Shown here one piece after another: positions 11,798-15,765 of a stretch of 64,000 nt of DNA. Position 1 is the first letter of the stretch; each line of letters starts with the position of its first letter. The DNA comes from Taibaiella soli (GTDB lineage Bacteria > Bacteroidota > Bacteroidia > Chitinophagales > Chitinophagaceae), in the NCBI RefSeq assembly GCF_003236175.1, contig NZ_QKTW01000019.1, positions 69,818 through 133,817 of the forward strand. Reading direction: 5' to 3'. The notes beneath the pieces are model-generated. The model saw only the letters and a list, made by a program, of their open reading frames with translations. It did not search any database and had not been told where the DNA came from. Made by a program: the position numbers and the translations under genes.

Positions 11798-13444
11798 ATG
11801 ATCAAAAAGCTACTCTTTACTCTTTCTATCGGATTGTTTACCCAAGCAGTCTCTACTAAGGCCCAAATTATCAACACCATTGCTGGAAATACTACTATGG
11901 CGGGTTATTCAGGAGATGGCGGGCCATCTACATCAGCTGTACTCTACTATCCGACAGCAATCACTATCGACAAAAACGGAAACATCTATATTATTGATCA
12001 GGGACTCGGTGCTCAGAAATTGCGTAAGATCGATGCCAATGGTATTATTACTACAATAGCGGGGAACGACACGCTTACTACTTTCAGTGGCGATGGTGGA
12101 CCTGCTATCAATGCGGGCTTTCAGACGATGGGAGCTTTGGCGGTAGATACATTTGGAAACGTATTTATTTCTGACCCTTACGACAACCGCATCCGTAAAA
12201 TAAATACGGCCGGCATCATCAGCACAGTTGCTGGCAACGGTACCACAGGATTTAGCGGAGACGGTAACGCTGCGGTTAACGCAAATATCAGTTACCCGCT
12301 TGCCATGACAACAGATCTCGCCGGCAATTTATACTTCGCGGACCGCGGCAACCACAGAATCCGCAAGGTCACTACTTCTGGTACCATTTCTACATTTGCG
12401 GGAGATGGCAACATCGGCGTCTATCCGAATGTTGGCGATGGTGGACAAGCAACGGCAGCAAAAATGACACAGGTAACCGGACTCGTAATGTCGCCCTCCG
12501 GCACGATGTATGTTGCCGATGAAATATTGTACACAATCAGAAAAATCGCCTCGAACGGTATCGTGAGCACCATAGTTGGCGCAAGCGGCAGCCAGCAATT
12601 CGGTGCGCCGCGCGGCCTTGCTCTGGACAATAGAGGTAACTTGTATATTGATGATTACTCTTGTCATAAAATCCGCATATTCACACCTTCTGGCATTCTT
12701 TCCGATTTCGCAGGCTCCGGAAACTGTAACGGCGGTAGCTGGGGAGATGGCGGCATTGCTACAAATGCAGCACTTTGGGAACCAAATGGCGTAGCGCTGA
12801 TTCAGATTGCTCCAAGTTGTGTTGCTGTTTGCATCGCCGATAGCCGTAACAACCGCATCCGCGTAGTGGTGGCCAACAATTCCAAACCGACCGTTCACAT
12901 CAGCGCGTCACAAACGACGGTGACGACCGGTACATCTGTAACGCTCACCGCAACGCCGACCGATGCTGGTGCAGCCCCAACCTATCAGTGGTATAACTGG
13001 GGCACTCCTGTAGGATCACAGGCGTCAACTTACACTTATGTTCCGCAGGACGGCGACCAGATCACTTGTAAAGTGACGAACACGGATTGTAATAACGGAG
13101 TAGAATCAGTAGAAAGTAATTACGTAACGCTGAATGTAACACCAACACCATCATCAGTGACCGAGCAAGCAATGCAAAATACTGCCTTTGTATTGTATCC
13201 AAATCCAAACAATGGCGTAATGTCAATTTCGGGCAATTGGTTTTCCACCGGCGATAAAAAAGTCTCTCTAAAGATTTTCAATGCACTCGGTCAAAAAGTT
13301 TTCGAAGAAAGCGTATCCGTGGATAACAGTGTGAAAACGCACGCCGTTAATCTCAATGGTCAATTAGCACCAGGCACTTATCAATTGATCATTTCCGGAG
13401 CACAAGTAAAATCAACTCGATTCACTGTTTCGGGCAACCAATAA
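11798..13444 (+). CDS. Secreted NHL-repeat protein with Ig-like domain and T9SS sorting tail
   Basis: 548 residues. Signal peptide 1-22 (ending STKAQ). Residues ~25-365 hold six NHL-type blades (DxxGNIYIxD...N.IRKI, then GTISTFAG / GIISTVAGNG and GDGG). Residues ~365-450 are an Ig/PKD-like domain (PTYQWYNWGTPV, QDGDQITCKVTN). Residues ~465-548 are a type A Por secretion tail (FVLYPNPNNGVMSI, KIFNALGQKV, LAPGTYQLII). It is predicted to be exported by the T9SS and surface-attached or released. The ligand of the propeller is unknown. Own promoter (11771) and terminator (13466). Confidence 0.88.
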   Translation: MIKKLLFTLSIGLFTQAVSTKAQIINTIAGNTTMAGYSGDGGPSTSAVLYYPTAITIDKNGNIYIIDQGLGAQKLRKIDANGIITTIAGNDTLTTFSGDGGPAINAGFQTMGALAVDTFGNVFISDPYDNRIRKINTAGIISTVAGNGTTGFSGDGNAAVNANISYPLAMTTDLAGNLYFADRGNHRIRKVTTSGTISTFAGDGNIGVYPNVGDGGQATAAKMTQVTGLVMSPSGTMYVADEILYTIRKIASNGIVSTIVGASGSQQFGAPRGLALDNRGNLYIDDYSCHKIRIFTPSGILSDFAGSGNCNGGSWGDGGIATNAALWEPNGVALIQIAPSCVAVCIADSRNNRIRVVVANNSKPTVHISASQTTVTTGTSVTLTATPTDAGAAPTYQWYNWGTPVGSQASTYTYVPQDGDQITCKVTNTDCNNGVESVESNYVTLNVTPTPSSVTEQAMQNTAFVLYPNPNNGVMSISGNWFSTGDKKVSLKIFNALGQKVFEESVSVDNSVKTHAVNLNGQLAPGTYQLIISGAQVKSTRFTVSGNQ

Positions 13445-13625: not shown

Positions 13626-14702
13626 TTATTTATAAACCTGCACTACGCAAGTATAAGATTCCATTTTCTTGATTTGATTTTCGCGGGAAAGATTGTTCAG
13701 TTTATTCGCCTTCGGCAAATGAATCACATCTTGTTTTGGCAGTGAACGGATCAGCTGCATCATTGCTTTGCTTGACACCGCATAAGTAGTTCCCTCGCTT
13801 GCAGATTCTTTGCTGGTAACAATACCGAGTACGTTACCATCTTCATCCATTACGGGAGCACCGCTCTGACCTGGGGCAGCAGGCAGTTCCAGACGATATT
13901 GTACTGAGTCACCGCGCAGGCCGTTTTTAGCGCTGATATAACCTTCGCTATAAACGATTTCATCACCTGGGAAGCCCAATGTATAGACACGTGTACCTAA
14001 ACCAGCTTTAACATTGGCAAATGTGTAAGGCACATCAGTTTTAGAGAAACGGAAATTTTTGTCTTCGATTTTCAGGATCGCCACATCGTTCTTCTCATCG
14101 TAAGCTTCAATGTATGCTTTATAATATTGGCCATCGTGTACCTGCACATACAAAGAATCAGCTTCTTTGGCAACGTGGTAACTGGTGGCTATATAACCGT
14201 TATTGGTAACTGCAAAACCCGTCCCGCTTACATTACCGGGCGCTGGCGGATTTGCTTTAATAGCGTCGATTTTCTGATTGAGCTGATGCTGATTGGTTTT
14301 AATAGCCTCCACCTCATTGTGCAACTTCCCTAATTGTACCACATCAGCTTTATGACTGTGATCAGCCTGGCGATAAATAGCCACCGAGGCGAAAGAAGTA
14401 ACGAGTGCTATACCCGCTGCCACTGCTGCTGTGCGTAAATAATGAGTACGTAGGGGAATAGTGCGGGTTTTTGTTTCTTGTTTGGCTGTTTCCTGCTGGC
14501 TGATATCAGCGAGCATTGAGCGGAAGTTGGCCTGTTTTCCACTGTTTTGCAGGGAAGACAGCAAACTGACACATTCCTGAAAGGCCGCTGCAAACGCCGG
14601 ATCTGCGTGTTGACGCTGTTCCAGCATTGCGACCTCCTGTTCCTGCATACTGCCGGAGAGGAATGATTCCGCTAATTGCCATATATGATTGTCTGTAGAC
14701 AT
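13626..14702 (-). CDS. Membrane-anchored trypsin/HtrA-type serine protease with anti-sigma-like N-terminus
   Basis: 358 residues. Residues ~1-50 (LAESFLSGSMQEQEVAMLEQ, HADPAFAAAF) have the pattern of Bacteroidota anti-sigma/FecR N-termini. A single span lies at ~91-110 (TAAVAAGIALVTSFASVAIY), then a short periplasmic coiled coil (~124-150). The S1C-type protease domain at ~158-325 has an intact triad: H176 (GYIATSYHVAKEAD), D206 (EKNDVAIL), S280 (APGQSGAPVMDEDG). There is no PDZ domain. It lies 12 bases downstream of the ECF sigma gene on the same strand, so it is probably its regulator. The expected topology is sigma-binding part inside, protease outside. The fusion of both roles in one chain is my inference from layout. 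Confidence 0.82.
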   Translation of the reverse strand: MSTDNHIWQLAESFLSGSMQEQEVAMLEQRQHADPAFAAAFQECVSLLSSLQNSGKQANFRSMLADISQQETAKQETKTRTIPLRTHYLRTAAVAAGIALVTSFASVAIYRQADHSHKADVVQLGKLHNEVEAIKTNQHQLNQKIDAIKANPPAPGNVSGTGFAVTNNGYIATSYHVAKEADSLYVQVHDGQYYKAYIEAYDEKNDVAILKIEDKNFRFSKTDVPYTFANVKAGLGTRVYTLGFPGDEIVYSEGYISAKNGLRGDSVQYRLELPAAPGQSGAPVMDEDGNVLGIVTSKESASEGTTYAVSSKAMMQLIRSLPKQDVIHLPKANKLNNLSRENQIKKMESYTCVVQVYK

Positions 14703-14714
14703 ATTCTTTATTCT

Positions 14715-15293
14715 CTATTTCGACTGAACTCCGTAAAACAGTTTGCGGAGCCGGGTCAGGCATTTATATTTCTGCGTCTTGGCGTTGTCGGGATTGGTAT
14801 ATCCAAACTCACTGGCGATCTGCTGCATGCTTTTATCCTGCGTATAGAAAGCCCTCAACAACGAAGCACAAGGCTCACCCAACTGATTCAGCGCCTGATT
14901 TAACTGGCTGTAATGCGATTCCCTTTCTTCATGCACTTTAATCTCGTCTTCGTAAATCCAGTCTCGTCCTTCTTCACTGCCGGTATTTTCCGGGAGGTAA
15001 CCCGGTTGGCGCTGCATTTGCTGCAACCGCTTATACCAGAGGTGTTTACTGATGGCAAACAAATAAGTACCGATTTTGCAGGTCAGCCGGAAATCTTCGC
15101 TTTGAGACTTCTCATATAGTATGACCATTGCTTCCTGATAAATATCCTCTGCATCACTTTCCGAGCCACCATTATTAATGATCCAGTGCACAACGGTAGG
15201 ATGATGCTGCCGGTAAACCCTTTCCGCTGCAGGTCTGTTTCCTGCGGCCAGTTCTGCCAGTAATTGTTGTTCCGTATTTATTGGGTTGTACAC
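14715..15293 (-). CDS. ECF-type RNA polymerase sigma-70 factor
   Basis: 192 residues. Region sigma-2 at ~10-85 (AERVYRQHHPTVVHWI, DAEDIYQEAMVILYEK, CKIGTYLFAISKHLWYKRL, the last being the 2.3-2.4 region) and sigma-4 at ~125-187 (LNQLGEPCASLLRAFY, SMQQIASEFGYTNPDNAKTQKYKCL helix-turn-helix). There are no regions 1 or 3, which is typical for ECF factors. The start is GTG 15293; an in-frame stop is just upstream and no ATG precedes region 2. A candidate promoter of its own class ends one base before this GTG. Followed after 12 bases by the membrane protease that probably controls it. Confidence 0.9.
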   Translation of the reverse strand: MYNPINTEQQLLAELAAGNRPAAERVYRQHHPTVVHWIINNGGSESDAEDIYQEAMVILYEKSQSEDFRLTCKIGTYLFAISKHLWYKRLQQMQRQPGYLPENTGSEEGRDWIYEDEIKVHEERESHYSQLNQALNQLGEPCASLLRAFYTQDKSMQQIASEFGYTNPDNAKTQKYKCLTRLRKLFYGVQSK

Positions 15294-15294
15294 T

Positions 15295-15324
15295 ATTTAT
15301 CCGTTTTTCTGCAAAAAGTAACCC
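15295..15324 (-). promoter_or_regulatory. Predicted ECF promoter of the sigma-factor operon (GGGTTAC-N17-ATAAAT)
   Basis: On the minus strand GGGTTAC (15324-15318) is followed after 17 bases by ATAAAT (15300-15295). The same two boxes at the same spacing precede the divergent lipoprotein gene. The match fits autoregulation by the ECF factor encoded here. The -10 box ends one base before the GTG start, so the transcript would be leaderless or start slightly inside. An additional GGGTTAC without a -10 box is at 15366-15372. Confidence 0.6.
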
Positions 15325-15466
15325 TTGGGGTAAAAAAATACTTTTCAGCCCTAAAATTAAGCCAAGTAACCCTGGTTTTTTAAAACTTTATTTTTCGTCT
15401 AAACAATTGATATTGAATGAAAATTGACCGATACTCAAAAAAAAGAAAAAATTTTTCTGCTACCGC

Positions 15467-15496
15467 GGGTTACCTTTTTCTGTTTTGGGTATAAAT
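15467..15496 (+). promoter_or_regulatory. Predicted ECF promoter of the small lipoprotein gene (GGGTTAC-N17-ATAAAT)
   Basis: GGGTTAC (15467-15473), 17 bases, ATAAAT (15491-15496). Both copies also share C/T-rich sequence directly after the -35 box (TTTTT). Expected start about 15502, leaving a leader of about 22 bases before ATG 15526. Confidence 0.6.
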
Positions 15497-15525
15497 GATA
15501 AATAACAAACAAAAAAAATCAAGTC

Positions 15526-15765
15526 ATGAAATTTGCAAAATTAAGCATCTTCGCTCTGGCAATGGGTCTGTTCGTAGCTTCTTGCGGTAACTCAGAAACT
15601 AAAACTGAAACTACTACAACTGATACAACTGCTGTAGCTCCAGCAACTCCTGCTGTTGATACAACTGCTGCTGCTGCAACTACAGTTGACACTGCTGCTA
15701 AAATGGCTCCAGCTGCTGACACTACTGCTAAAACAACTACAACTACTACAACTGAAAAACACTAA
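15526..15765 (+). CDS. Small Thr/Ala-rich lipoprotein, likely ECF target
   Basis: 79 residues. Lipoprotein signal peptide with lipobox VASC at 17-20, then a low-complexity mature part made of Thr, Ala, Asp and Lys (TTTTDTTAVAPATPAVDTTA and similar). No fold is expected; it could be an envelope spacer or tether like other short disordered lipoproteins. It is divergent from the sigma gene and carries the same promoter signature, so it is the best candidate target of this sigma factor. Strong terminator at 15793. Confidence 0.8.
   Translation: MKFAKLSIFALAMGLFVASCGNSETKTETTTTDTTAVAPATPAVDTTAAAATTVDTAAKMAPAADTTAKTTTTTTTEKH

Follow-up and report, generated by a model that had tools for sequence, protein, structure and literature searches.

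The paradigm for control of extracytoplasmic function (ECF) sigma factors by proteolysis is the sigmaE cascade of E. coli (RseA-DegS-RseP-ClpXP), in which the anti-sigma factor and its protease are separate proteins and which leaves open how the specificity of the one for the other arose. Here we describe a locus in a 64,000-nucleotide (nt) stretch of DNA from Taibaiella soli (the window, by which we mean the whole stretch that was analysed). In this locus, a gene next to an ECF sigma factor gene seems to encode both in one chain, with an anti-sigma-like N-terminal domain, one membrane helix and an HtrA-type protease domain. All sampled genomes of one family have the fusion, as do members of two others, with the sigma factor gene adjoining it wherever the contig reaches. 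We consider it probable, though well short of certain, that the fusion protein is a membrane anti-sigma factor that carries its own periplasmic site-1 protease. ECF regulation is poorly charted in Bacteroidota, and the predicted promoter and regulon make this system directly testable.

The E. coli cascade is similar to our locus in having a membrane-bound anti-sigma factor for an ECF sigma factor and a protease with the DegS-type fold. It differs in that DegS is a separate protein with a PDZ sensor (passages of PMC8103513), whereas the fusion is a single chain in which no PDZ domain was found. The RseP and ClpXP steps of this cascade are those that we propose for the fusion by analogy. The closest precedent is RsgI9 of Clostridium thermocellum (PDB 7sjy), in which a fusion of the anti-sigma/S1C type already exists. 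RsgI9 likewise combines in a single chain an anti-sigma-type region inside the cell, one membrane helix and an S1C domain outside it, and the predicted fold of our protease matches 7sjy with a Z of 18.5 (root mean square deviation 2.5, 168 residues aligned). An X-Ala-Ala motif in the membrane helix is recognised by ClpXP, which was tested there as a chimera (passages of PMC12203970). Unlike our protein, RsgI9 belongs to the SigI/RsgI family and not to the ECF systems, is an orphan without a paired sigma factor gene, and carries an NTF2 domain as well as a self-cleaving periplasmic domain of its own, with the S1C domain described as carbohydrate-binding (the same passages). General family scans of the window proteins, which included no search aimed at the self-cleaving domain, gave no RsgI family match. 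The preliminary description of this DNA had stated that anti-sigma factors and their proteases are usually separate proteins, which holds for RseA and DegS.

Class I (ASDI) anti-sigma factors, whose domain is sandwiched between sigma regions 2 and 4 and which bind and inhibit the sigma factor, provide another comparison. They have a short cytoplasmic helical domain before one membrane helix and are encoded next to an ECF gene, and fused domains occur among them (passages of PMC7406223). According to passages of this survey, only 6% of the ECFs of Bacteroidetes are linked to class I anti-sigma factors, and the word trypsin is absent from its main text. Dma1 and Dma2 of Bacteroides are Bacteroidota anti-sigma factors that are described as spanning both membranes, and the likeness to our protein is one of description. 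In the open-access literature, searched by titles and the starts of abstracts, we found no recognisable sigma-paired anti-sigma/HtrA fusion from Bacteroidota; most subscription papers lie outside this scope.

The preliminary description had given a sigma factor gene followed by the fusion gene, with a divergent lipoprotein gene, and the open reading frames (ORFs) were found as given there. The features are listed below by position in the window, with lengths in amino acids (aa).

14715..15293, minus strand: ECF sigma factor gene, GTG start, 192 aa; TIGR02937 61.8 bits, Sigma70_r2 36.7 bits
13626..14702, minus strand: anti-sigma / HtrA-type protease fusion gene, ATG start, 358 aa; 12 nt downstream of the sigma factor gene
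14448..14702, minus strand: predicted cytoplasmic anti-sigma-like domain, residues 1-85; NF052375 matches in relatives, AlphaFold2 helices of high predicted local distance difference test (pLDDT) score, profile match to an unfused protein
14373..14432, minus strand: predicted membrane helix, about residues 91-110; hydrophobic stretch read from the sequence, AlphaFold2 helix at residues 85-114 (282-311 of the joined chain)
14415..14423, minus strand: X-Ala-Ala motif, residues 94-96, reading VAA in this protein, as a candidate site for RseP/ClpXP; both alanines (A95, A96) unchanged in all 72 homologues
14256..14339, minus strand: predicted helical stalk from membrane to protease, residues 122-149; AlphaFold2 helix 319-346 of the joined chain, moderate pLDDT
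13722..14246, minus strand: S1C (HtrA/DegS-like) protease domain, residues 153-327, with H176, D206 and S280; Trypsin_2 160-294, TIGR02037 153-327
13632..13652, minus strand: conserved C-terminal strand, residues 351-357, with a helix before it; AlphaFold2 strand 548-554 of the joined chain, conserved in the family
15296..15324, minus strand: predicted promoter of the sigma factor gene, GGGTTAC-N16-GATAAA; motif scan
15366..15372, minus strand: extra GGGTTAC core upstream of the sigma factor gene, no matched second element; motif scan
15467..15495, plus strand: predicted lipoprotein promoter, GGGTTAC-N15-GTATAAA; motif scan
15526..15765, plus strand: small Thr/Ala-rich lipoprotein gene, 79 aa, divergent lipobox ORF, probable output gene

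Conservation of the sigma-fusion pair and the N-terminal domain

The sigma protein passed the TIGR02937 model (61.8 bits against a cut-off of 42.9, residues 22-184) and scored above the cut-off of Sigma70_r2 as well, confirming it as an ECF sigma factor. To see how often the fusion gene is paired with such a gene we used 72 loci from Chitinophagaceae, the window's own counted, and 80 loci from named organisms, two sets that overlap in some genomes. The sigma factor gene is directly upstream of the fusion gene in 71 of the 72 family loci, and the lone locus without it (L021) is cut short by a contig end. It adjoins the fusion gene in 77 of the 80 named-organism loci and is readable by eye in a 78th (L142); the two loci without it (L095 and L161) both start at a contig end. 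The adjacency, which had been named beforehand as a point on which the idea could fail, is therefore conserved in relatives.

With the full-length protein as query, a strong homologue was found in all 71 other sampled genomes of Chitinophagaceae. In about 12 of these the alignment begins within the protein or at a contig end, and the open frames are approximately 350-390 aa long except in the truncated G045. Among the matches listed, sorted by E-value, for 47 genomes from other families of the order, none included the N-terminus and the best were to the protease part only. Homologues from named organisms came from Sphingobacterium, Pedobacter, Mucilaginibacter, Parapedobacter and Hymenobacter (best 80 of 472 candidates). 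A survey of 247 genomes across the phylum (E ≤1e-25, at most 8 candidates scored per genome) gave full-length matches only in families f1 (8 of 8, including the window's genome), f23 (6 of 6) and f29 (2 of 2). From the organisms at the named loci, f23 is probably Sphingobacteriaceae and f29 probably Hymenobacteraceae. This conservation across homologues excludes a chance fusion. The search for sigma-adjacent fusions that the preliminary description had called for found the architecture throughout the sampled Chitinophagaceae and, among the matches listed, not in the 47 genomes from other families of the order.

The N-terminal domain shows a weak sequence resemblance to anti-sigma factors. The anti-sigma factor model NF052375 matched 14 of the 72 full-length members at E ≤1 (best 2.2e-6), and 10 of 53 N-termini searched alone matched it at E ≤0.1 (best 1.8e-4). 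We also modelled the sigma factor and residues 1-85 with AlphaFold2 as a tethered chain, read through the intervening TAG and supported by an alignment of 70 rows. This gave a pLDDT of 91.0 and a predicted template modelling score (pTM) of 0.87, a figure with no negative control behind it. The linker between the sigma regions is poorly defined in the model (pLDDT near 50), and a confident overall arrangement despite this loose linker suggests that the N-terminal domain holds the two sigma regions together, clasping them as one unit. When the joint model, and not the N-terminal domain alone, was used in a fold search, the good rows were sigma chains, many of them from sigma/anti-sigma complexes, and the other rows shown were unrelated helical proteins.

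An unfused relative was found in G082, a genome from a family without the fusion, where the strict promoter motif described below located a homologous sigma factor gene (101 bits to the window's sigma). It is followed by a gene for a 321-residue protein that has one hydrophobic stretch and, by eye, no protease (L340, 1702-3243). Searched against 11 ORFs, the profile of the fusion N-termini gave this protein a score of 26 bits (E 3.9e-9). It is possible that the G082 pair is a picture of the state before fusion, and the promoter motif beside it offers a before-and-after comparison. The GGGTTAC motif is located upstream of this pair on the divergent strand. With regard to the earlier claim of an anti-sigma-like N-terminus, the similarity stands on the matches in relatives, the match to the unfused protein and the joint fold, and the structure prediction proposed at that time returned one confident unit; sigma binding is what these results would predict.

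The protease domain and the membrane helix

Trypsin_2 matched residues 160-294 of the fusion (78.7 bits, E 9.8e-22). The triad H176, D206 and S280, which had been described as intact and was numbered exactly, is invariant in 72 of 72 homologues, as is the GxSGxP frame, and this argues for catalysis. The AlphaFold2 model of the whole joined chain had a pLDDT of 87.7 and a pTM of 0.54. The folds closest to the protease were HtrA1 and DegS in Foldseek, with a VIA Z of about 20 over 161-168 residues. The models for full-length DegP and DegS were matched below their cut-offs (TIGR02037, 73.7 of 416.2 bits; TIGR02038, 52.7 of 422.95 bits). Since no PDZ domain was found either, the domain is of the HtrA type but the protein is not one to be filed as HtrA or DegS.

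Related proteases were observed without the anti-sigma part. A 355-aa protein of the same genome (C22:195041-195760; L039, 3560-4627) has a signal-peptide-like start and matches the protease part including its C-terminal end, with no match to the anti-sigma part. Bacteroidota proteases of 417-536 aa at L082, L084, L293, L294 and L297 have unrelated N-termini and, by eye, the same C-terminal end. This shared end after the protease domain suggests, from the sequences, a distinct protease subfamily.

The terminal helix and strand of the model prompted the idea of a circular permutation, with the first HtrA strand moved to the C-terminus. Most HtrA alignments of the model begin after the first HtrA strand. 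However, when the last 28 residues were put in front of the core, the mean gain in DegP-profile score was 0.34 bits compared with 0.21 bits for shuffled tails, and only 8 of 72 members beat all 10 of their shuffles. Compared by profile with the first helix and strand of DegP, the tail scored 1.55, whereas column-shuffled tails averaged 2.5 and 69 of 100 of them were equal or better. We do not claim a permutation.

Residues 91-110 form a hydrophobic stretch with basic residues on its N-terminal side. From this charge pattern the N-terminus should be cytoplasmic and the protease outside the membrane, in agreement with the single span and periplasm-facing protease described before. At the start of this helix, A95 and A96 are the only invariant residues outside the protease (72 of 72), and the motif reads IAA in 44 members, VAA in 20, AAA in 5, MAA in 2 and LAA in 1. 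The Ala-Ala end of RseA is a parallel. One gene for an RseP-type M50 peptidase is present in the window's genome, as is ClpX, and most bacteria have both. For RsgI proteins it is reported that, once RseP has cut, ClpXP recognises X-Ala-Ala ends in the membrane helix (passages of PMC12203970). By analogy, the invariant motif fits proteolytic release with RseP and ClpXP as later steps, and it is not proof of this.

Shared predicted promoters and the divergent lipoprotein

GGGTTAC occurs in 114 of 143 upstream regions of the sigma factor gene, compared with 1.1 in shuffles (143 of 148 regions were long enough, from a set that overlaps in some genomes). The sigma factor gene and the lipoprotein gene share the predicted promoter GGGTTAC-N15/16-GTATWAA. 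Of 66 family loci, 58 have the full motif on the sigma strand, 48 have it on the divergent strand and 43 on both, and it was found in 0 of 66 dinucleotide shuffles. The sigma-strand motif ends 2-15 nt before the annotated start in 46 of these 58 loci, the window's own ending 2 nt before the GTG; in the other 12 the called ORF start lies upstream of the motif. With so short a distance to the start, the sigma message may be nearly leaderless.

In 65 of the 66 testable loci a small divergent lipobox ORF lies no more than about 600 nt away, compared with 10 of 460 control windows placed at random, without regard to whether the DNA was intergenic. G005 is the only testable locus without one, and a promoter-bearing lipoprotein is encoded elsewhere in that genome (L220). 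The window's lipoprotein has a weak match to NF050142, below the cut-off. The idea that this lipoprotein is the output of the system gains support from the shared and conserved promoter, as judged from its sequence, and the product could be a protective surface protein or a feedback signal.

The strict pattern GGGTTACYWTTN{11,12}GTATWAA gave 68 sites in 38 of 45 family genomes, with none in the other 7 and 0 matches for the reversed pattern. By eye, 53 sites are at the sigma locus. The 15 others precede four small lipoproteins, two copies of a 145-residue secreted-looking protein, five copies of a 96-residue protein with a match to AMPK1_CBM (E 1e-7), one longer protein with a weaker match, and something else in three cases. 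A batch of 20 off-locus sites, picked by eye among the matches listed, contained the 96-residue protein five times, its longer relative once, small lipoproteins five times, the 145-residue kind three times, one protein resembling it and five others. Ten homologues of the 96-residue protein (at least 57% identity, L258-L267) have the motif in strict form in five cases and relaxed form in four, with none in G037; four of the five homologues that were not found via the motif have the relaxed form (L265 read by eye). This promoter motif hints at a link to glycogen or envelope sugars. The strict motif is also present in all 6 genomes of f23 and, among the 47 genomes sampled from the order's other families, in 2, one of the two cases being the unfused pair of G082. 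In G072, a genome of the order without the fusion, a single strict motif stands just upstream of a gene for a 192-aa protein (L325, around 1501).

A large regulon was ruled out by the genome-wide motif counts. In the window's genome a loose pattern gave 9 matches compared with 11 for the reversed control, and in 60 family genomes a similar pattern gave 243 compared with 211, an excess small enough to be mostly sigma loci. Because these counts are close to the controls, the regulon has to be a small one. A search of the window's genome for relatives of the 96- and 145-residue proteins gave no match, and together with the lack of a motif excess this makes the operon and the lipoprotein gene the only likely targets there.

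A working model and its alternatives

We infer the following order of events. At rest the N-terminal domain would clasp the ECF sigma factor, as in the joint model. An envelope signal would make the protease active, and it may then cut the stalk, either its own in cis or that of a neighbouring copy in trans. As in RseA and RsgI, RseP would next cut the membrane helix near the invariant X-Ala-Ala and ClpXP would clear the fragment via the exposed Ala-Ala end. The freed sigma factor would transcribe its own operon and the divergent lipoprotein gene from the GGGTTAC-N15/16-GTATWAA promoters, the conservation of which is observed. We regard as doubtful, if attractive, the further step that substrate and site-1 protease in one molecule make a self-contained envelope sensor in which the sigma-made lipoprotein feeds back on the protease. 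If this is true, the strict divergent pairing and the shared promoter would be the two halves of a homeostatic loop that whole families of Bacteroidota have retained.

Several results weigh against an anti-sigma factor with a built-in site-1 protease. The window's own protein matched NF052375 at only E 0.031 (14.3 bits, with a model cut-off of 100), and its N-terminus alone matched no family at E ≤0.1. A profile hidden Markov model of the N-termini searched against PDB sequences gave no anti-sigma chain among the 60 best of 128 matches. The pTM of 0.87 comes, without a negative control, from two chains tied by an artificial linker of five residues. The Pfam scan showed no PDZ family up to E 1 and we found no other known sensor domain, and the Ala-Ala in the membrane helix could be conserved for packing instead. 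The promoter motif is missing from the sigma strand in 8 of 66 loci and from the divergent strand in 18 of 66, neither of the 2 f29 genomes has its strict form, and in the window's genome the loose pattern is no commoner than its control. The PDB search itself returned mostly PPAR-gamma (best E 0.03), which we took as chance.

The N-terminal results raise the alternative that the protein is not an anti-sigma factor, but a membrane-anchored quality-control protease co-transcribed with the sigma factor, for which the weak score of the window's N-terminus in the whole protein (E 0.031) and the lack of a match for that N-terminus alone would be expected. We find this highly improbable given the anti-sigma matches in relatives, the match to the unfused sigma-adjacent protein, the pTM of 0.87 with the sigma factor and the near-universal adjacency. 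Better placed, though in our judgment still the less probable account, is an anti-sigma factor whose protease acts on misfolded or specific periplasmic proteins, with the sigma factor released through another site-1 protease or by a change of conformation. There are secreted-looking proteases that share this C-terminal end but lack the anti-sigma part, one of them in the window's genome (C22:195041-195760), which indicates that this type of protease has work elsewhere, and in E. coli site-1 cleavage of RseA is done by a separate protein, DegS (passages of PMC8103513). However, a separate substrate leaves unexplained why a single-chain fusion is conserved in at least three families.

It is also conceivable, but quite unlikely, that the S1C domain is mainly a sensor or ligand-binding module and that proteolysis is incidental. 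The S1C domain of RsgI9 is described as protease-like and able to bind cellulose (passages of PMC12203970), and the promoter motif in relatives also precedes a protein with a domain of the glycogen/starch-binding type. However, all 72 homologues keep the triad and the GxSGxP frame unchanged, which a pure binding module would not need. We continue to favor an anti-sigma factor that carries its own site-1 protease.

Convergent to the fusion gene, at 11798-13444 of the window, is a gene for an NHL-repeat protein that has a match to an Ig-like domain and a type IX secretion sorting domain.

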